From Brugia malayi (Eukaryota; Nematoda; Chromadorea; Rhabditida; Onchocercidae), in the NCBI RefSeq assembly GCF_000002995.4, contig NW_025062478.1, positions 4,626,001 to 4,690,000 on the forward strand: a stretch of DNA of 64,000 nt, read 5' to 3'. Both the position numbers and the translations under genes were made by a program. The notes under the pieces are model-generated. The model was not told where the DNA came from and searched no databases. It was given only the letters and a program-made list of their open reading frames with translations. Shown one piece after another: positions 2,234-41,012 of the stretch (position 1 is the stretch's first letter; each line of letters opens with the position of its first letter).

Positions 2234-2401
2234 ATGGAAGGAGGAGCTTGCGGTGATGCGGTAGTCCATCCCACATTTATCCGACACATCAGGTTGCAGC
2301 AGTTGCCGGTGCTGCGACTGCTTCTGCTGTTGCTGTTGCTTGCTCGTTCCGCACAAGGCTATTCATATTCGTGTGATTGTCATCTCCCAGTGGTACGGTA
2401 G
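2234..2401 (+). CDS. signal-peptide-like first exon (left copy)
   Basis: This open frame of 55 codons stands out from its AT-rich surroundings by higher GC. After an N-terminal MEGGACGDAVV it runs into a leucine-only core of eight residues encoded by CTG/TTG/CTT triplets, then ARSAQG and a CxC. That resembles a secretion signal with cleavage near the alanine. Possible donors are GTG|GTACGG (exon end 2392, phase 0) and ACG|GTAGCA (exon end 2397, phase 2). Whether it joins the BH3 exon at 2885 or belongs to a separate secreted Cys-rich product is unresolved; a secretion signal on a BH3-only protein would be odd. The ATG lies just outside the duplicated block. Confidence 0.4.
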   Translation: MEGGACGDAVVHPTFIRHIRLQQLPVLRLLLLLLLLARSAQGYSYSCDCHLPVVR

Positions 2402-2607
2402 CAAATCTCTCTCTCTCCCTTATCACTGACAACCAACAAATTCCACCGCGGTACAATAACTCCTCGCAAATTCCCTACTTACCAAGCAATTAAAATAATA
2501 ATAGACAAAGATTACACCAGTGTACGCTGTTTATGAGTAACTAGGAAGGGTTATTCAATGCGTCAACTGCTGAACGCATTTAAATGTCTTGAAATATACG
2601 CTTTCAG

Positions 2608-2877
2608 ATGTTATGCGTTGCGTTACTCATCGATAGATTTCCTTCACCGATAGGGTATATTCCGTGTTCGGCAACGATACTTTCAAGTTTCATCGAATCA
2701 GTTGTAACGGATACTGCACGAATCGTTCCTATAGGCAATCACATTTCCGTATTTATCCCTGCGACAGAAGACGAACGGAAGGTGAAATTTATGGATGCTG
2801 CAATGCAAACATCGCCTGGTTTGTTACTTTCCTCGAAGGATTTCAAATTCTGCTTTACGTTTCATAAAATGAATTGA
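2608..2877 (+). other. ambiguous exon region with two open frames (left copy)
   Basis: A good acceptor (CTTTCAG) ends at 2607 directly before an ATG whose frame stays open for 89 codons. A second frame, open from about 2637 to 2867, encodes a Cys-rich segment (SCNGYC, then YPCD, then GCC) with a hydrophobic end. The donor GAAG|GTGAAA at 2781/2782 would leave the Cys-rich frame in phase 1, exactly what the BH3 exon at 2885 needs. The 89-codon frame would instead meet an immediate stop. So either the Cys-rich frame is spliced to the BH3 exon, or the region is an independent product, or it is 5' UTR. No family was recognised; the CxGxC pattern occurs in cystine-knot proteins but is too weak to name one. 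Confidence 0.35.
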
Positions 2878-2884
2878 ATTTTAG

Positions 2885-3497
2885 TAACGCAACTCAACAT
2901 GTCAATAATAGCTCGTCAATTGCGTGATATGGCTGACAGGTTCGAGTACCACTACAGTGAGGAAGAACGACGCTCTGCATGCACACCTGCACCATCATCG
3001 CCGCAGTCGCAGGTTAGAATTCATTACATAATCTCTCGGGGAAGAACTGCTCTATGGAGGAAAAATATGAGTCACTCAAAATTAGATAAATCCCACATTA
3101 GATTTTGTGTAAACAAAGCAAATATTAATGCACTGTAATAAAGTCCCAATCACTATTAAAGGTTTACGGTTACAATTATTGCGCAAATTGTCAAAAAATA
3201 TTGCCATTGACGTATTCACATAAATTCTTCACTTTTTCATTCTGAAAAGATTATTTTAAATGATTATATTTTAAATAATAAACATTTCGTTTTCTAACTC
3301 TCAAATTGCGAACTTTGGTCGAACATTGAGTCGTTTAATACTCAGGAAGTTTTGGCACTTGTAATTTAGGTCAAAACTGAAATAAATTTCAGCTGCGAAG
3401 TTTGTCATTTTCAACTTTCGTCCAATTCATTACAAAAAATTTCATCAATGTTTTACTGGAACGAATATTTGAACGATTCTATTTGAGGAAAAAGTGA
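2885..3497 (+). CDS. BH3-only-like cell-death activator, left copy
   Basis: The coding exons are 2885-3012 and 3393-3497 (stop TGA). Splice sites are TTTTAG|T, CAG|GTTAGA and ATTTCAG|CTG. From the ATG at 2899 the product is 72 aa. Residues 3-15 read IIARQLRDMADRF, matching the BH3 core L-x3-(A/G)-D with hydrophobics at the expected spacing; the nearest resemblance I know is to Bim, Bmf and Puma BH3 helices. An acidic/basic and Pro/Ser linker follows, then a hydrophobic tail (FSTFVQFITKNFINVLLERI) like a membrane-targeting end. BH3-only proteins such as worm EGL-1 bind the Bcl-2 homologue CED-9 and release CED-4; that role is inferred here. The exon is entered in phase 1, so an upstream exon may add residues, or TTTTAG may be a spliced-leader acceptor. 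A poly-A signal lies at 3712-3717. Confidence 0.72.
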
Positions 3498-4697
3498 ATT
3501 GCGTGTCTACCTTGTACCTATCTGCGTGATATTTCCATGTTACACTAACCGTCACAGATAATGTTTAGTAGCGGAATGGTAGAAAAGTGTATGATAGAAT
3601 GAGTCGGCCATATTAATATCACATTTTAATTATCGAACACAATACTAATTATTAATCAATTTATTTTTGTACTTATTTTGTGTATTAATTGGTGCTATGC
3701 AATTTTGTTTGAATAAACAAATATTTAAAATTTTGTTAAACAAAGTTTTCTTCACGAATTTCATTACTTTGCTATGGTTGAGCCTTTAAATTAACAAAGT
3801 ATCGTTAAAATTGAAGCATTTGTTTAGCTCCGACTTTTTGCTAGAATAAGACAACAGCGCACAGTAGTAGTAACCTAAAAACTACGGTATTAATAGCCGA
3901 AAGGTTCAATTTTACAGTTAGTGGCTCTATAAATGACGTAATGTGAAGTGACACCTGGTCATTCAACTTTGGCACTTTAATTAATTCAACTGCAAAGAAT
4001 TCAATAATCTCAAGCCGAAAGCATTTTTTTACTATCATTTACAAGTGCCCAGCAAGTGCTTCCATACACTGACCACTCTTTAGAGTCATTACTTTGTCTA
4101 CGTTTTTCCACTATGCAATGATTAATTAATTCGATGAAACTATTTGTTGCGCCACGTGGCAATCATCAGAAAAGTATAAAAGAGAGAGGGCGAGGAAAAG
4201 AGAAAGTGTGGTTGAGAAAAAGATTAGAATTGAAAGTTGTGGAATGTGCAAAATATTGCAAAAAAAAAAAAAAAAAGAAGAAATCTTAAAAGCCATTTAA
4301 GCATTTGTTTACCATTAAATCTAATCTATGCTCCTTTGCTGACCCATTTGACCTTTCATAATTATGTGAGAAGACGATAATCTTAGTTAAAAAGCATATG
4401 GTATTCTGTGCAAGTGGTTAATGGCAAAAATTTTTTTGCACTAAGCTGTAGACTTATGTAAACTAAGCTAACAGTGGACAATAACCTTCAGACTAGACAA
4501 TTATCCAGGAAGTCCTTCTAGCTTGTTTTTTTCTCAATTAAATTCACACCTGCGCAAACGTTCAGTGAAAAATGATGGATGAGCAATTAAGAGAAATGCC
4601 ATTCACATTTGCGCATTCATATCGAATTACATATTGTTGGGTAAGATTAGTAGCTCACACTTCTAAGTGACATCGTTTAAAGCAAATTCATTTATCA

Positions 4698-7600
4698 ATT
4701 AAAACTCGAAATATGAAAATTCTCTCTATATATAATATTTGTTGTTAATTTATATATAATTTCTAGAAACCATATCAGTTAGTATTTCAAAATACTGTTG
4801 TAATTTCAGGAATACTGAAACTAACAATGATAATATAAATGATCTTTCGAAGATTCAGTGCGGAGCTTTAATAGTGCAATGGAACTAAATAGAACTGTTA
4901 AATATGAATTTATCTTACAGAAAATGTTTATAATAGCATAACCATTCCATTTAATTTCACCCAATATTTTGATCATTTTTTAATCAAATTAAGTAAATTT
5001 GCGAAGCGAAAAACTCCATTCAAGGCCATAATGGCATACAACTAATAACTGATTATATTCAAAAACCCTCTCAGGCGGTTTTTTCTTTTTTACTATGTCG
5101 AACTTAGTGCTTTTTTTATCGACATAAGGCATACGTACAATTTTCAATAACAATACTCCTTCAACCATTAACAATTACTTTTGATGAATAATATTTATCG
5201 GAACACATTATAACATCAAAAAGAATAATTCAATGTTAGCATCGTCCGAATTACGAACGCAGTTCTATTGGTCACTAATAAACTTAGCAATATTTCTCAA
5301 TTATTCAATATATTTTGATAATTCCTCTAACACATCCAAATATATTCATTGAGAGTCACTTACAAATTATTGTAAAATAATGCTCCAATCCAGTATCTTT
5401 AAATTTTAATCTTAATTTCCATTTTTGTTATAATTCAATAAATGCATGGATTTTCTTTCGAATTACAGATTTGCCTTTTGATATTAAATTGTTATCCTTT
5501 AATGAAGAAGCAATATACAATAAGAATATTGCTACTCATTAATTTGCCTACTTCTAATAACTATCTTTGTTAGGCTTAAATAAATCAAGAGAATATTAAA
5601 TTGAACAAAATCTCAAAATTAAATTAATTAGGAAACATATGAAATGATAGATAGCAATTGGTATAATCACTGGTACTCTTTGAATTCACAAGGTGACAAT
5701 AGGACAAAGGGCAATGCGGATTGGACAACAATAGAAAGGATCTCTTCAGAAATGTTGTTTTATTTGATTACAATAGGAAAATGATAGTCTCAAAACAATT
5801 TCTTTAATATTTCATATTCCAAGCAGAACATTAATATGAAATCATTGGGTGTTACAAGGTAAAATAAAAATAAAAAACGAATAAAGAAGTGAAAAACAGA
5901 GAATGGAATGTTTCAAAGTTAAAACGTATTTGAAATTTACTTAATGAAGAATAACCATTATACTTCAAAGTATTTTAAATATTCAATAATAAAATAATAG
6001 ACACTTTATATCATGAAATTCCGATATTATTATCAATGTGCCATCCTATTCTTATCATAATTTCACTGACCATTTGAATAACTTCAGTACTTGGAGTAAA
6101 GGTAGTGTTTGCACTAATTTTGTTATTGTTGTAACAATAATATTAATAATAAACATATTAATAAAAACAATGATAATACAATAACAATAAAATAATAAAA
6201 ATAATGATAATAATTAATAATAGTAATAATAAATAAATAATAAATAGATGAGGGAATAGTAAAATTAAAGCTAAATTAAATCAATTGATGAATGAATTTG
6301 TTGGAAGAAAGATTTCCAAATTTCAGAGATTTATGCCGGATAAAATGGCAAGAAATCTCTATCTCTAATCCTTATTGCAACGATACTGTGCTATGTGCAG
6401 CACCTGTTACAGTACTTGCAAAGTATGATAAAGTAAGCTTTGAAGTAAGGCGATTATCGAATAGATAATTGTAGATTGTGTTGTTCTGAGGACGTACTCA
6501 GTTGTATCTCATATAATTTATCCCTGTATAATAAAGCAGTTATTTAGAAGATAAGAATAGCACAAACCCTTCTAAATACGACGAAACAATTGATTCAACG
6601 ATCCATAATTGAGTTGTTTCCTTTCCACTACATCGAATTATAACAATTTGACGCCTCCTTGCCTTATCCCATCTCTGCTCCGATGACCTTCAACAGTTTA
6701 CATGCTCATTCGAGTAATGTCATAGTGTCTCAGAGAGTATCGACAATAAAGTAATCTTATATCGAGTTATTGTAATATATTTACAGTTAGCTTTAGATTC
6801 CTAAACTAAAAACTTATGAATATTGAGGCATTATAGTATTGATTTCGAATTACAGATTTCGCTTTAATTAATCTAATTGCTTATGAATTCAATTAAATTT
6901 CTCATCCATTTATTCTTGTTTAGTTTTTTTTTTTTTTTTTTTTTTTTACAGAAAACAATGAAATCCGAAATGAATATAAATTTTAAAATTTCTCTCACTC
7001 AATTTGAATCACTTTGTTCTTGGGTCTTTTTTTTTTTTGAGAGCAAATAAAATTATGACAGAAAAGCTACACGAGCCATATCGTGCCAATCACAATTCCT
7101 TTTTTTCTATAAAAATCGTCATCAGCCATAAAATGAATTAACATTTTTGGATGAAGCTGAAGTTCTAATAATACATCGATCAAACTATTTTTAATTTATT
7201 ACAAAATTTATTGACTGAAAATAAATTTCTAAAGAAATGAACAAATTCGGCTTTTTTAAAATGTTTTTTGTTATAAAAGCTTTTGTGAAAGAGTTGAAAA
7301 ATGAATTCGAATTCAATTTTTACAGCCAATAATGAAAAACTGCTAAATAAATTTCTGTTTTAGTAGATATTTGTTCTGGGAAAAAGGAAAAAACTTTTGA
7401 AAATTAAAAAAACTTAAAGTTTCATTCGGTAATAAATTTTATAGTGTAAGAGAAAAGTTTGTTAAGGTTAGAAATTTCTTCACAATTATTTGCTAAGAAA
7501 AATACAACTCAATAAGATATAATTCGAAAATATAAAACTTTTCTTCACTTCTTTTTTACTTTTTTAATATTTACAGCATTGATACACTGAAATAGTGTAA

Positions 7601-10600
7601 TTAGTTTAATTTTAAATATGCATAAATACAGATTAATCGAAATGAACTAATTCTATTCCTAAAATAATTGTGAAGAAATTTCTATATAACAGAAAAAGCA
7701 GGAAGAAAAGTAAAAGATTAGAAAATTTAGGATCATTTAGTTTTCTGTAAAATCCTTATATTTGGTTAATATTAAATGCTAATATATGATCTTTTATAAG
7801 CACTAAAATCCTTTATATTTTGCCAATAAGTTCTAATTAAATATTAATATAAGGTCATTTAGAAGCACTAAAATCATTTATGCTTGGCCAACAATTTCTC
7901 ATTAAATGCTAATATTTGCCCTTTTACAATTTAAATTTTTTCTCATTTTCACAAATTGAATTCAATTTACATTTCGTTCTTTTTTCTGTTATACATATCG
8001 ATTAAATTTCGAAAAAAAGGGAAATTTTTTAAAGTGTATTTCAATTTTCCTTTATGTCCTTTTTCCAAAAACAAACCCTTTCTTTTTCAATCAAAAAAAG
8101 AAAAAAAAATTGTTGCAATTTTATGCAAATTTGATTTTTTTAAAAATGCTTTAGTAGTGATGACTAACGGATGTGCCTATCGGTTTTTTTCTGTGGGTTA
8201 GCAAAATATAATTTCTTTGTTTGTCCTCAATTAAAATGACCGAATGTCGATCATTTAGTGAATTTCCAAATATTTAATTGCCATCTCCTAGTGCCATTGC
8301 TATCATCGTTCATCCAATAACCATTCGTTTGCATCATTGGTGTAATAGTGCCTTTTTTCAAAGCTCATGAAACAGCTATCTGAACAGTTATTGGTTTTGT
8401 TTCCTTCCTAACTGAAAAGAAAAAAAAAAAGAATTAATTCATAGATACTATAAACTAGTTGTTGTCATAAGATTTCAGAATGACATTATTTGAAAATGAT
8501 ATCGTCACTTTGAAAGCTTGTCACTTATATTAGCGCTTGATTAAAGAAGGAATAAATTTGCGCAAGATGATGTGAAAAAAGAAATGTTTAAAAAACGAAT
8601 TTGTCAACTTTTTACAACTATTTATCAAAATTCGATATAATATAATTCATTTGATGCAATTTAAAAAGGAATTAATAAGCTTAAAACTTTAGAATTAGCT
8701 AGAGTTATATGAGGTTAAGGGAGCAAATCGATTAACTCTAACCTCAGGTAAATCAGATTGGTCAATTGATCAGCGCTATCTTTGTTATTATTTAGCGTGA
8801 GAGAATCCATTCTTTATCGAAGAAATCTCATCTAGCAGAGAATAGTTAATTGTTAATTGGTAGACAGATGGGTAGGACAACAGAGGACACAGCTTTCTCA
8901 GATACCGACCGACTCAATCCAATGACTTTATGTTTCTATTATTTCAATAATTAGGGAAATTACCTGGGAGTATTGCAATGGAAAGATGAGAGAAGCCTCA
9001 TTTTCCCTGTGCTATAAATAGCATCAAATCTTCTACCCTTTGTGAAGAAACAGTTTCTTCAATTATTCTGAAACATTTTGCAACTACCAAGCATTCTTAT
9101 TTTCTTAAATATCAAATTACATAGATATTGATTATAATAACATCGGCTAATAAATCATTTTTGTTAATGAAAATTGAACATCTAAGAGAAACAATTATGC
9201 GATGAACTGTACTGTTCAGTGTTTCTGAACAGGTAAAGGATCAAAGATTTCGGTATTATTTCATTCCAAAAATGTTCGTTGACTTCATAATAAGAAAATA
9301 AAGTTATTGAAAGAAAAAGGAAAAAAAAGTCAATGGAACAATTGAGCTGCCAGCGTTGTAAACAAGTGTCAAATATATTTTGTGTGAGGAAAAGATTATC
9401 GATAAATCTCTATCTTTTAAGAACAAGTAATTTTAGTGCCTTAGCTTGTAATTCAGCCATTCAGGAAAGAAAAATAGTTCATTTTATGACCAATAAACAG
9501 ATAATATATGATGGATTTTCCAAATAAAGTCAATTTAATAGCAAATAATTTGACAATGATAATTCATCAAAGCTTTTGTCTCCTTTAGGTGTGAGACGAG
9601 CGATTTGCATACCGTAGCGAAATTGTCACTGAATTATACTTACGAGCGTGAAATTGCGCGAAAAAACAAGCCCGCCCCCATGCATGCGTGCACTGTCATC
9701 GATTTAGCGTGATTGTACAAGTTATTTGTATGGATTTGGTGCTTGGGATCATTCTACCGGGATTTCCTGTTGTCTCATTGTCAATTACTAAGTGCTAATA
9801 TTTGCAGGGAAGTCTGAGAGTTTATCAAAGTATAAAAAGTATTTGAAAATAGTGCAAATAACGATTTGGATTGAAATGTTTTGGAAATTTTAGAAAAAAA
9901 GAGAAAATTTTGTTTTAGGAAGAGATTTCACAATGTTAATGGATGCAAAACTTTTTCTAAAAATTTTAATAACAAAAAACAAGAAGTATTTAAATAATTT
10001 AGCTTTACTTATACTCTGTGCTATGCTGTACTATTCTGTTTCACCAACAGTATTTTGCACTGCGCAAATTTTTTTCTATATTTTGTACCGTACACATACG
10101 TATTGTTCTGTTTGTACCAATATTAATTTTAGTTAATTTTTCTATTTTATGTTTTCTAATAAATTCACAGAGCATCAGTTTTGAGTTAGCATTTCTGGAT
10201 ATTTATATTATTCAGCTCTAAAATTCACTTTAAAATTTCTTCTTTTTTATATATGATAAATGCTAACAGTTGAAAGCTAAGAAAGTGTAGCTTAGCATAG
10301 CAATTAATGGGTTTATAGGAATATGAGATTAACCATAAAATAATATTCGTTGGTAAACAATAATTTAATTATTACAAAGATATCCCTTCATACAGTATAG
10401 AAACAGATGCACATACACACATTTGCACATATATATTAATCAATTTATTTAGATTTGCTGATGAATAGATAAACTTCCCGTTCTTGGGAACAGATATGCT
10501 GCAATACATCATTAAAAGTTTTTCTTTTTTTTTTGTTTTGAGTAATCAGTCGATAGCAAATGTGTAGCGATTTAGTCTCGAACATGTCTGTTGTCAAAAA

Positions 10601-11280
10601 TGAGAAATAAGTTTTATGATGTAAAGTATCATTAAGAGTTTAATATGATGTAGAATAAAAAAAGTTTTTTGAAAAAAGTTGGTAGTTTGAAGATAGTTTT
10701 AAAATTCAATTTAAAATATGATTTGAATTAGCTGATAAAATCACATAGAATAATATAACTGTTTGATCACAATTTAGACAGTTCATGCAAGCGAGAAAAT
10801 GATATATGAACATATTAGCAGCCTTATTTATTCTGCTGTATTTCTTTTTTAATTAGGATGCAGAGTTTAATAGAAAGAATGTTTAGAAAATGATTTTTTG
10901 TCGTCTTCTCAAATATTTTTCGTTAGTGATGTAGTTTTGAATTTACTGTATTTTGAATTATTTTTCAGATGCATTACACTGGTGGTATTATTGACAATAC
11001 TTATTTGAGCTATTCTCATGTCCTAACAGTTTATCCCTGTGACACTGCTATGTCTCTTGGTGATCATGTGGAATGCTGCATAGATATAAAGCTTTATCAA
11101 GTCAATTTATTTTTGATTTATCTTGATTGTTGCAAATGAACTATCTATAAATAGTCCTATTCCTCTTCATCTGATTCAAAAATAGGGGGAAAAGATAACA
11201 AAGAAAGTGATTGAGTTTCATTCACTATGATATTACTTATTCTACTTTTTTTCTTCATTTTAGTCAAATAAATCTCACTC
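4698..11280. other. spacer of the palindrome, left part, no gene
   Basis: This is AT-rich sequence without convincing exons. It holds an AAT/AATA-rich microsatellite-like tract (about 6120-6245), a poly-T run (about 6924-6947), a three-unit tandem repeat (7731-7920) and a GC-richer island (about 9590-9725) that could be a promoter or non-coding first exon of the gene at 11300. Open frames at 7956, 9333, 9933 and 10018 lack splice context or recognisable motifs. Confidence 0.6.
7731..7920. repeat. three-unit diverged tandem repeat
   Basis: Units of about 57-65 bp begin at 7731, 7788 and 7853. Each carries the order: GATC/GGTC plus TTTA-rich start, ACTAAAATC or TAAAATCC, a TTTAT block, then ATTAAATGCTAATAT or a close variant. 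A fourth unit seems to start at 7921 and decay. The function is unknown. Confidence 0.75.
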
Positions 11281-11287
11281 ATTTCAG
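11281..11287 (+). promoter_or_regulatory. acceptor (probably spliced leader) before central BH3 gene
   Basis: ATTTCAG sits 12 bases upstream of the ATG at 11300. The short leader and strong consensus fit spliced-leader addition, though a cis-spliced 5' UTR exon is equally possible. Confidence 0.5.
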
Positions 11288-11299
11288 GGCTGCATAAGA

Positions 11300-12008
11300 A
11301 TGGGAAATTGTAGGGAAGAAGAGGATGAGTTCGTTATTCAGAAAAATTTTTTTCTTGGCATAGGCTTTGGAGGCAGTAAAGCTAAGTCTGAGAAAATCAC
11401 CGGCAAATTGGATACAACGAATTTTGAAGGTAGTACTTGCTTTTTTTTTCTTTTTTCCTCATTTTTCAATTTCTTTTATTGAAGTGTAATAAATCATATT
11501 TTCATTAAATCTTTGTTTTATTGGTTGTTTTTTGAATAGTTTTTTTATGCAGGAAAACAAGAAGAATGGAATGCCCGGGTGATTGCTGAGCAGCTTCGAA
11601 GTTTAGCTGATAATTTTGAAGTTAAATTTCAGAAAGTTTACAAAGATCAGGGAAAAAGTAGTGCTTTGCTTGTAAGTTCTCTTTGAATTGGCATGTTAAA
11701 TGTGGGGGATTCACGATTGTTGATAATAGTTGCTAGTTGTTATATAGTTTACCATGATGAATTTTACCGTGATGAATCTCACTTTAATTATCAGTACATT
11801 ATGTAGAGTACATTTTAGAAATTCAGAAAAATTTTTATTTCTCTCATTATGAAGGATCGAAACAGATGTAGCTAAGTACCACTAAAGAAGGAATCGTTGA
11901 ATTCAAGGAACTAAAAAAGAAATCATTTATTGAACTTTATTGCAGTTCTCCAGTTTCACGAAGTATGTTATCAACATTCCTATTGGACGAATGGTCGGTA
12001 TTGTTTAA
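11300..12008 (+). CDS. BH3-only-like cell-death activator, central paralogue
   Basis: Three exons were reconstructed: 11300-11429, 11553-11671 and 11946-12008 (stop TAA). They give 103 aa with phases 1 and 0 and consensus splice sites (GAAG|GTAGTA, TGCAG|GAAA, CTT|GTAAGT, TTGCAG|TTC). The N-terminus is MGNC, a motif that can be myristoylated and palmitoylated. Residues 52-66 read RVIAEQLRSLADNFE, a textbook BH3 core with Leu58 and Ala62-Asp63; the preceding EEW and following KFQK also resemble vertebrate BH3 regions. A 20-residue hydrophobic end (FSSFTKYVINIPIGRMVGIV) resembles the tail of the arm gene. The BH3 exon has the same entry and exit phases as that gene's exon, which supports common descent. 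The inferred role is binding of a CED-9-like Bcl-2 protein to trigger apoptosis. The last exon is the least certain. Confidence 0.72.
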
Positions 12009-15000
12009 CTATACGAAAGCAACGTTCTCATTCTACCACAGTTTTACTTCTTATTATCATAATCTTGTTTTCTCAATTGTTATCAAATTTTTACATTTCT
12101 CTGAATTCATCAGTCTTTGTTCTAGTAAGTGCGAGTTTTCTGTTGTAAATTTTGTTCCTCTTTCTTCGAGAATTTATTATATTCGACTACCGTTGGATAT
12201 ACATGCTCATTGTTCTGCTGTTATTTTCCAAACCTAAAATTCTTACGTTTTGAAAATTTTGTCAGAGTTTCAGATTAGCATTTAAAAGACGAAGTCAAGA
12301 AGTGAAAAATTCTGTTTCCGATATAACAATTGCTTTAACCATGCTGCAGTTACTTGTTCTGTTTTTATTATCCTAACTTGTCTTTAACTATCCATTTATT
12401 TCTCTTTTGATTTCATGTTTGATTACATTGCAGTGATGCACCATAACATTTAGAAAACTATTTACCTTGTTTTATTTGTTTATTCATTTATTCTACTGTT
12501 TTCTACATCCGTTAGTATAACCGCAGTTACCTTCTTCAAATGTTACCATCTGTTTGAGATTTTATCTACTTTTTCCCCTCACGAAGATTAATATTTGCAG
12601 TATTCCACTATAATTTGTAATACAAAATTACGGATCCTTATCATACATTGAAGGTTTATGCATATATTTTTTCATCTGTAAATGTTGACTAATTTGTTAT
12701 ACTTCAATTATTTTTCTGTATGTTTGTCAGTTTGTTTGCATATTTTTATGAGCTTAGCACATTTTTTATGATAATAATGGTAGTGTCCGGTGTTTCAGGA
12801 AAGAATGTATTCTGTGAATAGATTGTAATTACTGCTTTTTTAGTAATATATATGGATGAGTTGATTGTTTTGTCGTTGTGAGTGATGTCATCGATACATT
12901 AACAGCAAGAGCAAGAATGTAGCTTGTTGCATCTTCATGTCTTTTTCTTCATTATCTTAAATTTTGCATAAATGACATTTGTATCCCCTTTGCACCCATT
13001 AGGAATATTTTGCAGCATGGAAGGAAATGGACACACTATCAGCTATTTTAAACACAGACATATTTGAGTTTTTGTCACGGTAGCTGATGATTCATCCATC
13101 CTATTTTCCATTCTAAAAGAATAAACAAATTGCCACTGATGGATAAAATGCGCAAACGGCATCAACTGGACGGATGGATTGTGACGACAGTTGTGACAAC
13201 TGAATATTGGTAATTTTCTAGATGAATGATAGTTCACAATTTTTACTTATTTTAAAGGACATAAAAAAAAAAACGTATCTTAATAAGAAAAAATTGATTG
13301 CTTTTCAGTAAAATCTAGAAAAGTGAAATTGCATAAATGTAACAAAAATTGTTTGTATGGGAGATGAAAAGATTAGCTTTAATATTCGTTTCTACATTAT
13401 TTTACTCTCTTAGTTTAATGCACTTTTTCGAATTATGTAATTGCCGGTTATCACTTCATTTTACAATGGATGAAAACAATCTGTCAATAATTATAGGGAC
13501 TAAAATTTAATAAGGGAATCATAATTAAAGTTACAACAGTTAATTGGAAGGATGTAATAAAAACGATTTAAGGTTCAAATAACAATCTGATTATTATCAT
13601 TTAAGCCTAAGTAATTTGATTGAATAGAAAAGCTTATTGCCATTCACTTACTACATTTACTGTAAAATGATCCTATGTAGTACAAGCTGTTTCCTTCTTT
13701 ATTTAGACTAATAGATCAAATGTATTTGAACATATGCTAAAATAGCAATTTGGCATATTCGATGGAATATCATTCTAAGCAACAGTTATTAATTCCATTA
13801 ACTACTAGTTAAATAGTACTATAAGCTTTGCTTATTAATTTGGTCACTCATTTTAGCACCACTAAAGGTCATCTGGACTTTGGAATGAGGAAGGTGAAAA
13901 GAACACTGAATTGTTATGATTTATGAAATGAAAAGAAAAACAATTCAATTGTGATATAGTTATGACCGGTAACCTCTATTTCCTGAACAATTAATACTTC
14001 ATTGTATAGAAGTAAATTATACGAGACTATGAGCTTAGTGTTACCTTTGAGAACAATACATTCCAAATTATTCATACAATTATCGGATTACTTCAAAGCT
14101 TACTTTATCATACTTACAGCAAACTGTAGCAGGTGTTTATAATGAGATTAATGAGCATGAAGGATAAAGTTCATTTATATTTTTGACATTTTATGAGGCG
14201 AAAAGTCATTGAAGTTAGAACCTTTTATTTTAAAAATACTGAATTGTTTGATGAAACTTCAATGTTCAGTGCTAGATCAAAAGATATGATGCGGGAAGAT
14301 GTGGGAGTTATTAGAAAAAGATAGTTTTTTACATTTATGAATTATTTTTAACTCTGCACAATGGAATAGAAAAATAGTTGGCAAAATTGATTTGAATCAT
14401 TCTTGCAATCTATATTTTTGAAAATTTCTTTTATACTTGTAGAAATATTTACTGCTCAGATTACTTCAAAATTAGATATAAAAGAGGACAGTAATATAAT
14501 AGGAAGGAATATTGGTTCAGAAATGATCACGCAAATTCTATCAGTGATTACTCTTTTCTTTTCGAATTTTTTTTTTTGAATTATCGTAGAACCGAAAATG
14601 ATCTCATAATTAGTTAGAAAAAAAAACAAGTGTAACAGTTAATTTATTCTTATTTCGAACGATATTCGAATGTTCTCATTATGCAACAAAGTATAGGCTT
14701 TAATTTGATGTGACTAAATGGAGATGAATATGTTCAGTGATTGAATAATTATAATTGAAATTTGATTTAGATTATTTTTACAAACTAATGTTTCTCTTGT
14801 TGAACAAATACTATTGCATTTACATTTATTTCTTCTCAATTTTCTCTATGAGAATATTTCAAGCACATAATCTTGGCTATATTTTCACTTGCAATTTATA
14901 CTAAATTAAATTAGTTCATTAACTAAGAATTCATAAAACCTATTCACAGTATGTTAATATAATATTTTTTAATACTTTATAAATTGACTATTATACAACC

Positions 15001-15949
15001 AATAATATATAAATGATAGAAAGTGAATACGAGATAGTGCAACGTAATCATTCACTTACGAAATATTATTTCGTTAACTCTAAAAAATAAGTAAAATATT
15101 AGAAACCTTTAAAAAAAATGAAATAAACTTGAAAAAGAATTGCATCTTTCTTTTATTACCCAATATTTCTAAGTTCTGTTATAAAAATTATTTCTTAAAT
15201 GACTAACAACAAAAAGAAATCGTTAATGCTCCACTGAATAATACTATTAGTAAGTGTCTGTCTGTGTGTGTGTGTGTGTATGTGTGTGTGGTGTATTTAG
15301 TTGATTATAGCGACAAAATGAGAAGGAATGATTATTGGTTGATCGTTCGTTCGTTGTAATATATTAGAAAAAAGTTAAAAATTATGGACACAAAGAACAG
15401 TGTGAAGTGATTGCCTATCAAAAAGAAATGGCGGCTTTTGCAGCAAACATTAAAATAAATAACTTTTTTTCTTCACTTTTTGCTTTTCTTTCTTTTTTTT
15501 GATCGTAATCAGCTTACTATTACGATTTCTAATGAAGTTTTTGTAAAAATTTATTTGATTTGATTTAGTTCGAAATTTCATTGTTTTCCTAACAAATCAA
15601 AAAAAAGGGCAAACAATGATTAATTTAATTTTTTAGATAATTGTTGTGAATTGTAAAAAGTGCTCCATTTCATTTTAGAGGGAACAGTAAATATAATGAA
15701 TATAAATGACAAAAAAAAAAGAGTAGAAATTAGAATTTAAAGAAAGTATGAGGGAACAATTATAATAATTATGAAATTTAATCGTTGTTTATTATTTAAA
15801 ATAAAACTTATTTCACTTTCAAAATGGATTAACATTATTGTTAGCAATTATCATAGAAAGTTTGGTGAATAATTTTCTTAATGTTTCTCAGTTTGGAGGA
15901 CAGATTTGACAGATCATTCTAATTTGTAATTAGTATGGATGTTGACATT
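12009..15949. other. 3' flank of central gene and AT-rich spacer
   Basis: No further exon is convincing. A GC-richer patch around 13000-13240 has an acceptor-like TTTTGCAG (13008-13015), short open frames and an AATAAA at 13120-13125. It could be a 3' UTR exon or an unrecognised small exon. A (TG)n microsatellite lies at about 15255-15292. The remainder is featureless to my eye. Confidence 0.5.
15255..15292. repeat. (TG)n microsatellite
   Basis: An interrupted run of TG dinucleotides, broken once by TATG. Confidence 0.9.
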
Positions 15950-15973
15950 TTGCATCACTTTGCTGCATTTCAA

Positions 15974-17115
15974 CTCTATTCATTCGAATTTTCATTTCAA
16001 ATGGCTGAATGAGATATATGAAGCGAATAAATGGCCTATTCCCTAAATGGTACGATCCGATTATGAAAGAGACATAGACTGGAACAACACAACAACAACA
16101 ACAACAACAAAAGTAACAAGTAAATTCATCGTATGAGATGTCCACAGGTGAAATTCTCAGGCAAGATCACCTAATCAACAAATAATGATTCATCTCCATT
16201 CATTACGAAATGGAATCATTTTGATCTGATAGGTTGTCGGAGCGGAGGAGGAAAAAGTGAAAGAAAGATTTTTCACTTGTCATATTGTTTTGCCAATCGT
16301 TGAAGTTTTTTTTTCTTGGATTAAACTTAATCATTAACGATTCGTACGAATTTCATAATATCATCGGAATCTTGTTAATGACAGCTTTTTTGACCCCTTT
16401 TTTTTAAATTGATTGAAAGATATCGAATAAGTAGTACTGTGTCTTTTTTCTAGATTTCAATCAAACATTTTTTAACTTTGCGAAAAAAGACCTATGAAGA
16501 TTTCAAATGAAAAACTTTGAGAATTAATCTGAGAAGTGATGAATGAAATAAAAGATAAAAATAAAAGAATAAAAAAATAAAAGAGAATAAAAGATATAAA
16601 TGAAATAATGAAATAAAAGAATAAAAGATATTATAAATAAAGAAATAGCTAATGTGGAATAGATGTGGGAATACAACTCATTTAAACTGAAACATCTTGA
16701 TTTAATGAATTTTTAATTCAGACCCTATTCATTCTAATTTCATTCAAAGTGGCTGAATGAGAGTTATGAATGGAATAATGATCAGTTCGATTTTGAATAA
16801 GAGGTAGACCGAAATGACAATAACAGCATCATCAACAAGACTAACAGGTAAACTTTTCATATGAGACCTCCTGGAAGGCAGTAATTTAACAAACTTCAAT
16901 TAACAATCATCTTATAAAAGGGATGTACAAATTAACAGAGTGAAAGGAAAAAAGAAAAGGTGGGATTTTCATTTGTCAAATTGTTTTACTGACTGTCCAC
17001 AATTTCTCCATCATTAAATTCAATCATTGGTAGAGGACATCGATTTCACAATACTTCGTCAACTTTAATTGTGTCAGATTTTCCTTGACCCTCTTTCCTA
17101 GAATGATTAATATCG
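15974..17115. repeat. diverged direct duplication (two units of about 0.4 kb)
   Basis: Unit A (about 15974-16430) and unit B (about 16727-17115) share blocks in the same order: TATTCATTC-AATTT-CATT, then TGGCTGAATGAGA, then a purine-rich stretch with AACA triplets (an AAC microsatellite in A), then ATATGAGA or ATGAGATG, TTTTTCA-TTGTCA-ATTGTTTT, TCATTAA, TTGACCC and GAT-ATATCGA. Neither unit has an open frame of note. The pattern suggests an old tandem duplication of a non-coding or decayed element next to the right arm. Confidence 0.6.
16086..16113. repeat. (AAC)n microsatellite
   Basis: Consecutive CAA/AAC triplets within unit A of the diverged direct duplication. The antisense reading gives a cysteine- and valine-rich frame that is an artefact of the repeat. 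Confidence 0.85.
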
Positions 17116-17293
17116 AAAAAAAGTTATGAAATAATCTTTATTGTGAATCACTTTCGGACTTTAAACTTAGTTTAAAACTTCATGAATATAAATAAATATC
17201 GGAATAGGACTCAATTCATTTACAATGACTCCTTGTATTACTTTAAATTTTATATATAAATTAATTAACTTTGAAACAAATGAGACACATAGC

Positions 17294-19750
17294 TGATAAA
17301 TGAATTTGCTTTAAACGATGTCACTTAGAAGTGTGAGCTACTAATCTTACCCAACAATATGTAATTCGATATGAATGCGCAAATGTGAATGGCATTTCTC
17401 TTAATTGCTCATCCATCATTTTTCACTGAACGTTTGCGCAGGTGTGAATTTAATTGAGAAAAAAACAAGCTAGAAGGACTTCCTGGATAATTGTCTAGTC
17501 TGAAGGTTATTGTCCACTGTTAGCTTAGTTTACATAAGTCTACAGCTTAGTGCAAAAAAATTTTTGCCATTAACCACTTGCACAGAATACCATATGCTTT
17601 TTAACTAAGATTATCGTCTTCTCACATAATTATGAAAGGTCAAATGGGTCAGCAAAGGAGCATAGATTAGATTTAATGGTAAACAAATGCTTAAATGGCT
17701 TTTAAGATTTCTTCTTTTTTTTTTTTTTTTGCAATATTTTGCACATTCCACAACTTTCAATTCTAATCTTTTTCTCAACCACACTTTCTCTTTTCCTCGC
17801 CCTCTCTCTTTTATACTTTTCTGATGATTGCCACGTGGCGCAACAAATAGTTTCATCGAATTAATTAATCATTGCATAGTGGAAAAACGTAGACAAAGTA
17901 ATGACTCTAAAGAGTGGTCAGTGTATGGAAGCACTTGCTGGGCACTTGTAAATGATAGTAAAAAAATGCTTTCGGCTTGAGATTATTGAATTCTTTGCAG
18001 TTGAATTAATTAAAGTGCCAAAGTTGAATGACCAGGTGTCACTTCACATTACGTCATTTATAGAGCCACTAACTGTAAAATTGAACCTTTCGGCTATTAA
18101 TACCGTAGTTTTTAGGTTACTACTACTGTGCGCTGTTGTCTTATTCTAGCAAAAAGTCGGAGCTAAACAAATGCTTCAATTTTAACGATACTTTGTTAAT
18201 TTAAAGGCTCAACCATAGCAAAGTAATGAAATTCGTGAAGAAAACTTTGTTTAACAAAATTTTAAATATTTGTTTATTCAAACAAAATTGCATAGCACCA
18301 ATTAATACACAAAATAAGTACAAAAATAAATTGATTAATAATTAGTATTGTGTTCGATAATTAAAATGTGATATTAATATGGCCGACTCATTCTATCATA
18401 CACTTTTCTACCATTCCGCTACTAAACATTATCTGTGACGGTTAGTGTAACATGGAAATATCACGCAGATAGGTACAAGGTAGACACGCAATTCACTTTT
18501 TCCTCAAATAGAATCGTTCAAATATTCGTTCCAGTAAAACATTGATGAAATTTTTTGTAATGAATTGGACGAAAGTTGAAAATGACAAACTTCGCAGCTG
18601 AAATTTATTTCAGTTTTGACCTAAATTACAAGTGCCAAAACTTCCTGAGTATTAAACGACTCAATGTTCGACCAAAGTTCGCAATTTGAGAGTTAGAAAA
18701 CGAAATGTTTATTATTTAAAATATAATCATTTAAAATAATCTTTTCAGAATGAAAAAGTGAAGAATTTATGTGAATACGTCAATGGCAATATTTTTTGAC
18801 AATTTGCGCAATAATTGTAACCGTAAACCTTTAATAGTGATTGGGACTTTATTACAGTGCATTAATATTTGCTTTGTTTACACAAAATCTAATGTGGGAT
18901 TTATCTAATTTTGAGTGACTCATATTTTTCCTCCATAGAGCAGTTCTTCCCCGAGAGATTATGTAATGAATTCTAACCTGCGACTGCGGCGATGATGGTG
19001 CAGGTGTGCATGCAGAGCGTCGTTCTTCCTCACTGTAGTGGTACTCGAACCTGTCAGCCATATCACGCAATTGACGAGCTATTATTGACATGTTGAGTTG
19101 CGTTACTAAAATTCAATTCATTTTATGAAACGTAAAGCAGAATTTGAAATCCTTCGAGGAAAGTAACAAACCAGGCGATGTTTGCATTGCAGCATCCATA
19201 AATTTCACCTTCCGTTCGTCTTCTGTCGCAGGGATAAATACGGAAATGTGATTGCCTATAGGAACGATTCGTGCAGTATCCGTTACAACTGATTCGATGA
19301 AACTTGAAAGTATCGTTGCCGAACACGGAATATACCCTATCGGTGAAGGAAATCTATCGATGAGTAACGCAACGCATAACATCTGAAAGCGTATATTTCA
19401 AGACATTTAAATGCGTTCAGCAGTTGACGCATTGAATAACCCTTCCTAGTTACTCATAAACAGCGTACACTGGTGTAATCTTTGTCTATTATTATTTTAA
19501 TTGCTTGGTAAGTAGGGAATTTGCGAGGAGTTATTGTACCGCGGTGGAATTTGTTGGTTGTCAGTGATAAGGGAGAGAGAGAGATTTGCTACCGTACCAC
19601 TGGGAGATGACAATCACACGAATATGAATAGCCTTGTGCGGAACGAGCAAGCAACAGCAACAGCAGAAGCAGTCGCAGCACCGGCAACTGCTGCAACCTG
19701 ATGTGTCGGATAAATGTGGGATGGACTACCGCATCACCGCAAGCTCCTCC
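17294..19750 (-). repeat. right arm of 2.46 kb inverted duplication
   Basis: This is the reverse complement of 2240-4697, one base shorter because of a 16-base poly-T run. Homology ends inward at TGATAAA (17294-17300), where this arm continues into AGC and the left arm into ATT. Outward it ends at 19750. Just beyond, a chance or conserved ATG (19753-19751, minus strand) keeps the first frame open. The gene inside points toward the left-arm gene. Confidence 0.97.
18493..19105 (-). CDS. BH3-only-like cell-death activator, right copy
   Basis: This is an exact inverted copy of the gene at 2885-3497. The BH3 exon is 19105-18978 and the tail exon 18597-18493, with identical splice sites and predicted residues; the internal ATG is at 19091. 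Poly-A signal, introns and 3' flank are also duplicated. Upstream of 19750 the sequence differs from the left copy, so its promoter and 5' splicing must be different, and it may be silent or expressed in another pattern. Identity with the left copy implies very recent duplication, gene conversion, or an assembly artefact. Confidence 0.7.
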
Positions 19751-19753
19751 CAT
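19589..19753 (-). CDS. signal-peptide-like first exon (right copy)
   Basis: The frame is identical to the left copy after the start but begins MGGACG instead of MEGGACG: one codon is missing and the ATG is supplied by sequence beyond the duplication border. The leucine core and CxC follow. The right version therefore has Gly at position 2 and a Cys at 5, reminiscent of lipidated N-termini. Whether it is translated is uncertain, for the reasons given for the left copy. Confidence 0.35.
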   Translation of the reverse strand: MGGACGDAVVHPTFIRHIRLQQLPVLRLLLLLLLLARSAQGYSYSCDCHLPVVR

Positions 19754-20610: not shown

Positions 20611-20728
20611 TTATTAATTATCAACTTTTGAACACTTCTAAAGAAAATAAAAAAATTGAATTAAATTTCAAAAAATTCAAGTCACAGCTTATTTTCTTTA
20701 TAAGTGTTTAAAAGTTGAAAATTAGTAT
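20611..20728. repeat. hairpin with 39-bp stem and ~40-nt loop
   Basis: Bases 20612-20650 pair with 20689-20727. In DNA 35 of 39 positions are complementary. In RNA read from the plus strand two of the four mismatches become G-U pairs. The loop is AT-rich. It could be a miniature inverted-repeat element or a small-RNA precursor. No flanking target duplication was seen. Confidence 0.65.
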
Positions 20729-31249: not shown

Positions 31250-34200
31250 ATGACAAGTGTATGGCGGCGAATACAAAAGTCGAACAAAAAATCTGTCAAA
31301 TATCGTTTTACAATTACACCGCAGGAATTATTAATTATTTGCTCAACAAAATGGCATCCGCAAACTGTAGTCGTAACTTGCATGCACAGGTCAATGGTAC
31401 ATTCAGATTTCAGTTGCATTTTACACTTCTCAAATAATACAGAAGAACCGAATTTATCCTCTTTTAATTGATGTGGATTCATTGGGTAGTAAGAGGCATA
31501 TTTCATCGTTTGTCTCGAATAGTACACTGTAATTTGGAGTAATGCTGTAATTTTAGCTGAATAAGTGATGCACATAGTTATCGGATGCTGCCACATCAGA
31601 TAACTGTACACTGTTGCACTACCGCAATATTTATAAAAATTGAATATTTACGATTATGCAGATATTTTGATATTAGATTCTTTGATTTTACTTGAATTCA
31701 GTGCTTAAAGAAATTTGCAGGAGACGAAAGGTGGAAGGACGAGTACGACGATGGGAGAGTAGCATGATAGATCCTTGTCGAGGCTTAATTGTATGGCCGT
31801 CACAGACACCGGATCCATTACTCTTCGACACAACTCTGTATTGTGACGATTCAATCCATCATTATAGCGATAAAGAATGGACTTTGTTGGTAGAGGAATG
31901 CACACGGAAAGGCAAACGAAAAGCTATCGCCGCTGTAAATTTAAATATGCCTCTTTTCGTCCAGGTTAGTCGTTACGCACTTTCGTAGGATAGATACTTT
32001 GGTGCGATATTCAAATGTGATTTGTTTCTTGCTATGTATAAGATTTGAGATTAGGTGATCATTGCTTACAATTTATTCTGGATCTCATCTGATTACTTCT
32101 ATCTTTTGTATGCTTCGGAATATCGCTTTATATACCTTTTATATAAACATTCAAACTATCTTTCCGGACGGATCATTTATCTTTTGTAAAGAGATTAAAT
32201 TTTGATATTTGAAGCTTTTTCGTAGTATTTTTAGGGACTTTTTTCAGGATCCAGAAACAGTAATCGAACTGAAATTAAAATTACGACCACTTTGGCCAGA
32301 ATTATCTCACTGTTCAATGCAAATTTTGATATCATCAGTGCTTATTGGTGATGAAGAAACGAAGTAAGCTAACTATTCCTTATGATACTATTATATAAGC
32401 GCTAAATTTCGATGCATTCTAAGGCTAACATCTGAGACCCAGTACCAATGTTTGATTATCAGAGACCATTATAATATGTCGAGGAATGTTTCATTTAGTA
32501 TCGTAATGTTTCATAATGCTCTGATCTTAGAAAAATTCATTGGAACTTTAATTTTCTTTTTTTTTTTTTGTTTCTGTTTCATTCAAAATTATTGTTTATA
32601 GCGATTTCGATACGAAAAGGGAAATATCAAGTGTTAACGGTGGGCACAGAGCTAGCATAGCAGGTGATACTGCAGAAACGGAACAGCGAACCAGCAATAT
32701 AAAAGATGAGTGATGAGGCATACATTGGATTAGAAATGATATTTAGTGTCACATGTGCCCTCAAATCCATTCCATGTCCGATTATGACAGTTAGACTGAA
32801 AACACAAATTTTTATGGGTAGAAAAAATATTTGTTCAGTGAATTGAGATGTGATCCAGAAACGATGATCTCAGAATCATTTGGGTATTTATTCGTTCTTA
32901 TTACTTTTGCAACTAAGTATAAATGAGAAGGGTAGAAAAACTACTAAAATTTGTGGTTTTTGAGCGTTTACTTACGTATGTGGGGAATACAGTATACCAA
33001 TATTTTCAGGCGGTACAGTTGTTACTAGTTATTCAATGAATTTAAATGACATGGAGAGGCGGAAAACGAGCAAAGAAGAAAGGAAGATAGAACTGGTTTC
33101 TCAAACTGAAGATGTTTATAAAAGTAATGGTGTTGTTGATATGCCTGGAAGATCTCTTGATCACAATCAAAGCTATTCTACAATTCGAGATTCGAGGATT
33201 GCAAGTGTTACTGAAAGAAAAAAATCCGGTATATCCATTTTACATGGTTTAAAGTAAACAGAAGCAATACATTTAAACTGTTGAAGATTGCTTTTTGAAA
33301 CTCGTATACTCTGCTGTCCCTTAGGAAATGCACAGTGAATTTAGTTGGTAAAAAAAATTTTTGCATCGTTCATATAACAACATTTTATATATTCTCTATT
33401 TTGTCTCATTTCATCAATGAGTCAATAATTTTCTTTTAAATCTCGGTAAGCTACACATGCAATTTGTCATATGTGGGAAAGCTGATGAACTTTTAGAACA
33501 TTTTATTGTAGATATGATATGATATATTAATAAATTCGAATCAATTTATTGTGCGATTATGGAGCATTTCTGGCTGTTACTGACGCGTCGAAATGATGCT
33601 AAAAATTAAGAGAAAATAGTGCAGATTTTTGGCTTCTGTCATAGATTTCGATATTTTGGGGATGCTCGAAATTTCTTGGTTTCCGTGTTGTAAAATATTT
33701 GAACATTTCAGTACACGCAAATGTTAATGAATCTGAGGAACGGAATGCATCCCAATCGGTAGTAATTGATCACATGTCCCAAAATGTATCAAAATCCAGG
33801 TTTGTAATTTTGTTAAGTTTTAGATTCTGCTCAGTGATTTTTATTCTCCGATTTCGACAGTTATTTTAGTTCATGTCCAGATGTTGCACATTGCATTTCA
33901 AGCGGTAATGCGTTTAGTCGATAACATTTATATTGCTGGATGGTAACAGTAAAATTGCTTGTATTTCATAATTTTTTTTTTGTATTTCTTATACAAAATT
34001 AACGAAATAGTTTTTCGTCAACGAGAACAAGTATTTAGCATATTTAGACCTTCGTTATGTTCCAGCTAACTTAAGTTCCTTTTCATTTTTCACACTAATT
34101 CACTTCTAGCGAACTAATGGAAGCTGAACTTGCCGACATAGCCTTTCAAACGAAGGAAGGATCGAATTTAAATCTGGAAAAAGAACCTAAAGCATTACCT

Positions 34201-40200: not shown

Positions 40201-41012
40201 AATTTTCTTTTAGATTTTAAATTTTGTTGCTTTCTTGAAGTCGTTCTGTTGTTCCTTATCATTCTAACAAACTATCGGCATATTTTCTGTTAAAAAATTC
40301 CTTCTTCAAGATGGAGACGATCTTCACCGCAATGCCTGATTTTTGTTAGCACTAAAGGACTGGTCGCTTCAAATAATTTTGCTTGAAAAAAATGATAGAA
40401 AAAGTGTTTTTTAGCGTACCATACAGCTTTCATTTGTAGAAATTGATAAGACTGAAGATGACAAACAGAAGATTGATAAAATGATGGATGATTTGGTTGC
40501 GTTAGTGAACAAAAAAGATCGCTTATCACAGAAGTTGATTAGCCATGAAGCCGAGTAAGCCTCTCGCTAGCTTTTATCGGATAACTGGTTTTGTTAAATC
40601 TAACTTTCCAAAATCGAAATGTTGCTTTTTTTAGTGTCAAACATATTTCAATAACAAAAAACATGGAGGAAGGTAATGTAATATGTTAGCCGCCATGTTA
40701 ATCGTAATGTAATATGTTAGCCGGTAATTTTCTGAATTTTTCATAAAAGTTCCCATCTTAAGTTGATTATTATTTACCTTGTTGTATTTTGCTTATTCAG
40801 TATTATTTTCCTCCATGATTGTAAAATGGAACACTTTGATTTTGTTATGTTTTTGTAAGCTATAAAATGAAAATATTTGCAGAGATGAAGAGATAGATGA
40901 AAGGGATCGATTAACTCTCGAAGCAGCTGCGAATTTTTCACGTGGCACCGAACAACCATTATCAGCTTCCAAAAGGATAATAACTTGGATTCGGTCAGAA
41001 ATTAGTAGCTGA
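31250..41012 (+). CDS. ehbp-1: EH domain-binding protein 1 orthologue
   Basis: The protein is 915 aa from 21 coding exons: 31250-31389, 31721-31964, 32248-32363, 32602-32663, 33010-33228, 33712-33799, 34110-34283, 34407-34568, 34735-34909, 35128-35199, 35582-35718, 36117-36311, 36654-36760, 37309-37389, 38605-38669, 39037-39141, 39445-39519, 39741-39852, 39978-40151, 40440-40554, 40883-41012. Residues 1-165 form the N-terminal C2-like domain (MTSVWRRIQ, KWHPQTVVV, RGLIVWPS, DKEWTLLVEE). Residues 326-435 are a calponin-homology domain (LLTWCQRVT, SGLAFCAIIHRYRPDLL). The last 170 form a coiled bMERB domain that in the family binds Rab8/10-class GTPases. A DPF tripeptide lies near residue 520. 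EHBP1 links endosomes and actin in endocytic recycling, with RAB-10 in C. elegans. The start is the first ATG after the TTTTAG acceptor at 31204. The donor at 39142 (GCG|GTTGGT) is non-ideal. Confidence 0.95.
40673..40723. repeat. two-copy 31-bp tandem duplication in ehbp-1 intron
   Basis: GTAATGTAATATGTTAGCCG occurs at 40673-40692 and 40704-40723. It lies in the last intron and is probably recent replication slippage. Confidence 0.9.

Follow-up and report, generated by a model that had tools for sequence, protein, structure and literature searches.

How does a filarial genome come to hold two identical copies of a putative death-activator gene, facing each other across a third, diverged member of the same kind? 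The question is raised by a 64,000-nt stretch of Brugia malayi DNA (contig NW_025062478.1, positions 4,626,001 to 4,690,000), hereafter the window. In it two inverted arms, each carrying a copy of the annotated but uncharacterised gene Bm10621, surround a unique 12.6-kb spacer holding a diverged relative of the arm gene. We put at roughly 60% the probability that inverted copies of a likely BH3-only activator gene flank a diverged relative here, that gene conversion probably keeps the copies identical, and that the palindrome is likely old.

A repeat search of the window returned two inverted, 100% complementary pairs, 2240-4275/17715-19750 and 4261-4697/17294-17730. They delimit two essentially identical arms of ~2.46 kb, exactly where an earlier, sequence-only reading of the window had placed them. 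When one A was removed from the 17-A run of the left arm, the right arm was obtained letter for letter, with 0 substitutions in 2457 bp, and this perfect identity covers coding and non-coding sequence alike. The first 2036 bases of the arm, searched against the assembly (86.8 Mb, 139 contigs), returned these two places only; genome-wide match counts here and below are lower bounds. With the window and the 200 kb upstream of it taken together (264 kb, contiguous), blastn at E 1e-20 found 27 repeat pairs, of which the palindrome arms were the sole inverted pair, the other 26 being direct and lying inside three short tandem arrays. Inverted, near-identical, gene-bearing arms around a unique spacer are among the features by which a gene-converted palindrome is recognised, and these were found at this locus.

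Between the arms lies a second inverted pair, which is far more diverged. Positions 6261-6544 align with 14266-13989 at 67% over 294 columns, and a 54-column piece extends the alignment to 6648/13909. The local score of this element pair was 70, compared with a maximum of 46 in 196 control comparisons. A 351-base query of the element and its surroundings returned itself and its partner only from the whole genome (E 2e-13), no third match being returned. Both copies are situated downstream of their arm gene and in the same relative orientation to it. If the element pair dates from the inverted duplication, the lack of any substitution between the arms means that they have been homogenised by gene conversion. 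The locus suggests an old palindrome whose gene-bearing arms have been homogenised in this way. The sequence-only reading had also proposed that conversion can keep the arms identical; the older 67% pair lends this support, and conversion itself is probable, judged from the contrast between that pair and the identical arms.

The arm gene consists of four coding exons and is complete in each arm, the right copy mirroring the left (Table 1). The right-arm translation is identical, letter for letter, to the public protein Bm10621 isoform a (P0015 in our numbering). Exon 0 encodes a leucine-rich hydrophobic stretch, exon A is strongly conserved, and exon B carries the BH3 motif. A motif for LC8 (dynein light chain) is present in BIM and BMF, and the MQTSP at the end of exon A was considered as such a motif; it was dropped, the Dirofilaria immitis sequence being MEISP. 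The spacer gene encodes a product of 151 residues, or of 103 residues from an internal MGNC start. Arm and spacer proteins are 21-22% identical overall and share the same BH3 residues and exon phases. Their Smith-Waterman score was 63, with a maximum of 46 in 2000 shuffles, and BLASTP gave E 2e-5. In arm and spacer genes alike, the BH3 exon is preceded by a phase 1 intron and followed by a phase 0 intron. A BH3-only-like gene in both arms and a third paralogue in the spacer, as first proposed from the sequence, were thus both borne out, the paralogue having exons within 10969-12008 and a counterpart in Brugia pahangi. When the spacer BH3 exon was searched against the genome with E up to 10, its own locus was the sole match and the arm copies were missed, one candidate having been scored.

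All three genes match the general BH3 pattern, hydrophobic-x3-L-x2-hydrophobic-(G/A)-D-x-hydrophobic. Over six frames this pattern was found at five places in the window, two of which are one other frame present in both arms, and at one place in 200 kb of neighbouring DNA. A narrower pattern, I-x3-L-x2-(M/L)-A-D-x-F, defined after these genes had been seen, was found at three places in the window, exactly the three genes, and at 0 places in the 200 kb. In 3 + 7 proteins scanned with hmmscan no Pfam domain exceeded its cut-off, Bcl-2 included, and there was thus no BH1, BH2 or BH4 domain; the genome's Bcl-2 matches sit on another contig, C135. Below the cut-off, P0006 and P0001/P0002 (the B. 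pahangi spacer proteins) gave DC_STAMP, BAR_3_WASP_bdg and Peptidase_M17_N. When a 31-residue piece of the spacer protein was compared with 177,635 distinct PDB sequences, nine matches were obtained at E up to 10. Of the top five (E 0.19-0.49), four were PUMA BH3 peptides and the other was a peptide called dF3; the next were four diguanylate cyclase chains (E 0.49-1.1). The AlphaFold model of P0015, of very low confidence, predicts a helix at 128-154; helical moments of 0.52 and 0.48 were calculated.

The arm gene was found in eight filarial genera: Loa, Elaeophora, Onchocerca (two species), Litomosoides, Cercopithifilaria, Acanthocheilonema, Dirofilaria and Brugia. Arm relatives made up 12 of 12 candidates in one protein search and 16 of 2815 in another, giving 16 arm-family proteins (P0003-P0018), some of which are alternative models of one gene. 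Fourteen of the 16 keep the BH3 pattern, as do the two B. pahangi spacer proteins, which makes 16 of 18; by eye, the two misses, P0013 and P0018, are models without the BH3 exon. The signature of the C-terminal exon was seen in 7 of the 18, the rest being cut, spliced differently in the model, or members of the spacer family. Across 11 aligned proteins of both families ten columns are invariant, and eight of these lie in the BH3 motif. For the spacer gene, B. pahangi has both forms (P0002 and P0001), and no other proteins were found in the search; by eye, the B. malayi and B. pahangi sequences have 11 differences in 103 residues. Outside its upstream exon the spacer protein is 89% identical to that of B. 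pahangi, compared with 44/44 residues in 10969-11100; this exon may belong to a different transcript or be separately constrained. D. immitis P0014 and P0016 carry the public names 'Transactivator/viroplasmin protein' and 'ATP-dependent RNA helicase', which are at odds with their sequences. For P0007, P0009 and P0010 the contig bearing the arm gene is just 717 to 1057 bases long, as would be the case if the region is repeated in those genomes too; this is no more than a hint.

Table 1. Positions of the palindrome arms, gene exons and element copies in the window
Feature	Position	Strand	Remarks
Left copy exon 0	2234..2392	+	MEGGACGD...LLLLLLLL...HLPV; matches Bm10621a except first residues
Left palindrome arm	2240..4697	+	2458 bp; 17-A run at 4260-4276
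Left copy exon A	2608..2818	+	MLCVALL...MQTSP; ATG immediately after acceptor TTTCAG; donor phase 1
Left copy exon B	2885..3012	+	BH3 motif IARQLRDMADRFE
Left copy exon C	3393..3497	+	C-terminal stretch LRSLSFSTFVQFITKNFINVLLERIFERFYLRKK and stop
Left element copy	6261..6648	+	~2.8 kb downstream of left gene; CACCTG at 6401, TGATAA at 6426
Spacer gene optional upstream exon	10969..11100	+	MHYTGG...KLYQ; 44/44 residues identical in B. pahangi
Spacer gene exon with alternative start	11288..11429	+	MGNC (ATG at 11300); donor phase 1
Spacer gene BH3 exon	11553..11671	+	VIAEQLRSLADNFE; phase 1 in, phase 0 out, like arm gene
Spacer gene last exon	11946..12008	+	FSSFTKYVINIPIGRMVGIV and stop
Right element copy	13909..14266	-	~4.2 kb downstream of right gene; CACCTG at 14135-14130
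Right palindrome arm	17294..19750	-	2457 bp; left arm minus one A
Right copy (Bm10621) exon C	18493..18597	-	with stop
Right copy (Bm10621) exon B	18978..19105	-	BH3 motif
Right copy (Bm10621) exon A	19172..19382	-	
Right copy (Bm10621) exon 0	19598..19753	-	MGGACGD...; identical to P0015

Several results weigh against a BH3-only gene kept in an old, converted palindrome, some touching the nature of the genes and others the age of the arms. With regard to the genes, the PDB BH3 matches of the spacer piece are weak (E 0.19 and worse). A 109-residue spacer query, whose last exon was wrong, retrieved from the PDB only a designed repeat protein at E 0.49 and no BH3 chain. The arm-gene BH3 found only an ESAT-6-like protein there, at E near 1, and the family profile likewise found only an ESAT-6-like protein. 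Pfam EGL-1 (PF11430) gave no match in the arm- and spacer-family proteins scanned and stayed below cut-off genome-wide, its best score of 15.6 bits (cut-off 21.2) lying outside this locus. Structure prediction of P0015 is of very low confidence, with a mean predicted local distance difference test score (pLDDT) of 46. NB-ARC (CED-4) was not found above cut-off in the genome, a negative that says little because the search was made exon by exon. Direct homology is therefore weak, and it is the spacer gene, together with the pattern of conservation, that supports reading the arm gene as BH3-only. A filarial-specific family of membrane or secreted proteins, in which the BH3-like stretch is a chance amphipathic helix without a role in apoptosis, would suit the hydrophobic exon 0, the strong conservation of exon A, the missing PDB BH3 matches of the arm gene and the longer spacer query, and the lack of a Pfam family. 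We regard it as improbable: it leaves to chance that 8 of 10 columns invariant between two otherwise diverged families are BH3 residues, that PUMA peptides rank first for the spacer piece among all PDB sequences compared, and that the narrow pattern is absent from the 200 kb of control DNA. The reading of these genes as BH3-only candidates is instead strengthened by their presence in eight filarial genera, by the shared exon phases and by the weak PUMA BH3 matches of the spacer gene.

With regard to the age of the arms, the inner flanks are no more alike than controls once the element is set aside. The inner-flank chain scored 185 bits, 102 of which come from the element alone, while control maxima were 142 (of 82) and 151 (of 84). 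The outer flanks showed nothing notable, with a chain of 79 bits; the inner-flank controls have means of 69 and 65, and the outer flanks have no control of their own. According to the available portion of a C. elegans survey (PMC3966223), conversion frequency declines with distance over 1-8 kb and converting neighbours are mostly in the same orientation; the present arms are inverted and 12.6 kb apart. Since the flanks cannot be aligned, thought must be given to a genuine BH3-only gene copied recently in inverted orientation, for example by template switching, with arm identity reflecting youth and the element pair being unrelated and older. Arms that are identical in coding and non-coding sequence, and the absence of alignable homology immediately inside or outside them, are as such a history would have it, and very young nematode duplicates are often local and inverted. 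It would, however, turn into coincidence an element pair in matching inverted order with no third match returned from 86.8 Mb, and 84% of adjacent duplicates in the same C. elegans survey, as far as its available text goes, are same-orientation (PMC3966223). We judge this history unlikely, though it deserves serious attention. Perfect identity would also be produced by an assembler that made the second arm from one real arm. Against this, the outer flanks and both inner flanks differ, the copies differ at codon 2 and in the A-run, and a 12.6-kb spacer is present. A fold-back error would be expected to duplicate the flanks and to leave no such spacer, so an artefact of this kind is very improbable. 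An old palindrome with arms kept identical by conversion is accordingly the reading that we prefer.

At their outer ends the two copies part within the first codons. The identical stretch starts after ATG on the right (ATG|GGA GGA GCT) and after ATG GAA on the left. In the left copy the start codon and codon 2 (GAA) are just outside the arm; in the right copy the ATG (19753-19751) is outside and codon 2 (GGA) holds the first arm base. The proteins thus differ at codon 2, the right beginning MGGAC and the left MEGGAC, and the upstream DNA differs also. An alignment of the arms that continued for 20/17 bases beyond their outer boundary, across the start codons, was gapped and too weak, and was not used. 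The right start, MGGACG, presumably fits the N-myristoylation pattern (a predicted signal), and the left start, MEGGAC, is predicted to be one that cannot be myristoylated. Conservation of the signal is doubtful because the Dirofilaria start MGGASL and the spacer-gene start MGNCRE fit the pattern incompletely. D. immitis P0017 has the exon 0 start MGGA and the leucine run of the right copy, and P0016 of the same species starts differently; from P0017, which is one model only, the start of the right copy looks ancestral.

The element copies were examined for a regulatory role. Each retains one CACCTG and a TGATAA. In C. elegans, the Snail protein CES-1 binds four conserved elements downstream of egl-1, according to the part of PMC7527206 available to us. 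That the CACCTG of the element might play a Snail-like role as at egl-1 is an attractive idea, by analogy. Enrichment of CACCTG was considered and rejected: downstream of the genes, 3 sites occur within 3.2 kb (left) and 4 within 4.6 kb (right), a density that is no evidence because at least 3 sites are also present in 24 of 492 control windows, each of 3.2 kb. A conserved RNA structure is not claimed either, the comparison of two sequences giving 41 pairs, 6 of them with both sides changed, and no Rfam match. As for a coding exon, none of the 12 frames printed is free of stops over its ~60 codons, and one- and two-base gaps interrupt the alignment. The element is treated here as non-coding, and it may still hold a short exon. 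The right inner flank contains a degraded direct duplication at 15990-16857, with a spacing of ~730-750 bp and pieces of 83% and 76%, which may help to explain why this flank is longer than the left.

The palindrome is on contig C138 (13.5 Mb), and with C139 (24.9 Mb, the longest contig seen) taken as the X chromosome, the locus is probably autosomal. About 13 kb ahead of the window, a 1.2-kb tandem array with a period of ~60 bp was found (L039, C138:4613003-4614234). Just outside the right arm, at 20612-20727, there is a 39-nt inverted repeat with a 38-nt loop, which has a weak Rfam match to MIR1878 (34 bits, cut-off 70; E 0.0036). Neighbouring open frames match calponin homology (34099-34569), bMERB (39908-40210) and RasGEF (48726-49094) domains, these being the 3 of 10 frames tested that gave a match.

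Likely partners are present in the genome. Two Bcl-2 family (ced-9-like) genes were detected on C135, with matched stretches 2.6 kb apart, and exons of one of them match CED-9 structures at E 7e-19. The linked genes (L004 and L005, C135:10546604-10552776) show BH1- and BH2-like stretches by eye. They agree with the two closely linked BCL-2 paralogues of Brugia and its relatives described in the accessible part of Young et al. 2020 (PMC7456325). A caspase gene lies on C136. In an EGL-1-like route, the short amphipathic BH3 helix would dock in the groove of a CED-9 protein, which would free CED-4, and the caspase CED-3 could then act. By analogy with EGL-1, CED-9 binding and death activity are likely for the three candidates. 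Two copies with the same coding body could be switched on by different signals, as would be expected because their upstream DNA differs, and the spacer gene could form a third input to the death signal. A fuller version of this model is a speculative one: in an ancient autosomal palindrome, conversion would keep two death-activator bodies identical while everything outside the arms diverges, giving two triggers and two membrane addresses. Its particulars are just as tentative, namely that the right protein would be myristoylated and the left not, that the promoters would be unrelated, and that each copy would have its own downstream element with a CACCTG Snail/E-box site.

No description of a filarial BH3-only gene sequence was found in the literature searched, nor anything relevant on Brugia palindromes and gene conversion. 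A review, as far as its text was available, treats EGL-1 of filaria as belonging to the general pathway (PMC10538269). Wolbachia depletion leads to extensive apoptosis in filarial worms, as stated in the available part of PMC3207916; no BH3-only trigger of this death was found in the literature searched. The arm and spacer genes are specific, filaria-wide candidates for starting programmed cell death, and they could be measured after antibiotic treatment. Their partners would be the ced-9-like genes, which are duplicated in this lineage. The palindrome would also offer a natural test of gene conversion preserving coding identity while regulation diverges.

Among known activators, egl-1 and ced-13 of C. 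elegans are single dispersed genes. Like EGL-1 and CED-13, the B. malayi candidates are small, have a single BH3 motif and come from a nematode genome in which CED-9-type and caspase genes are also present. They are unlike them in having no Pfam EGL-1 match, in the four coding exons of the arm gene with its conserved exon A, and in their arrangement, with three paralogues inside 20 kb of which two are identical and inverted. PUMA BH3 peptides give the best alignment with the spacer BH3 (weakly, E 0.19). In BIM and BMF the BH3 is followed by a C-terminal hydrophobic stretch, which is a point of likeness with the B. malayi candidates. There is no match to the PUMA, BIM or BMF families, as no Pfam match above cut-off was obtained at all. 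Regulation from downstream DNA, through four conserved Snail binding elements, is a feature of egl-1 in the portion of PMC7527206 at hand. The spirurid BCL-2 paralogues come from the same lineage, and as linked, duplicated ced-9-like genes they are the expected partners; the part of that study available covers BCL-2 and CED-4 proteins, and no filarial BH3-only gene was seen in it (PMC7456325).

As to architecture, human sex-chromosome palindromes, which undergo gene conversion, also have arms near 100% identical, genes in both arms and a unique spacer. The Brugia arms differ from them in being only 2.46 kb and in lying on C138 rather than on the putative X, C139. A parallel in C. elegans is hsp-16-48, given in the available text of PMC3966223 as an example of gene conversion, with two gene modules in an inverted repeat around a unique spacer. 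Its spacer, 416 bp by the same source (PMC3966223), is too short to hold a third such gene, and the genes are heat-shock genes. Inverted, gene-converted duplicates are therefore already known from C. elegans; what is new in B. malayi is that the genes so arranged are candidate death genes, of a known functional class.

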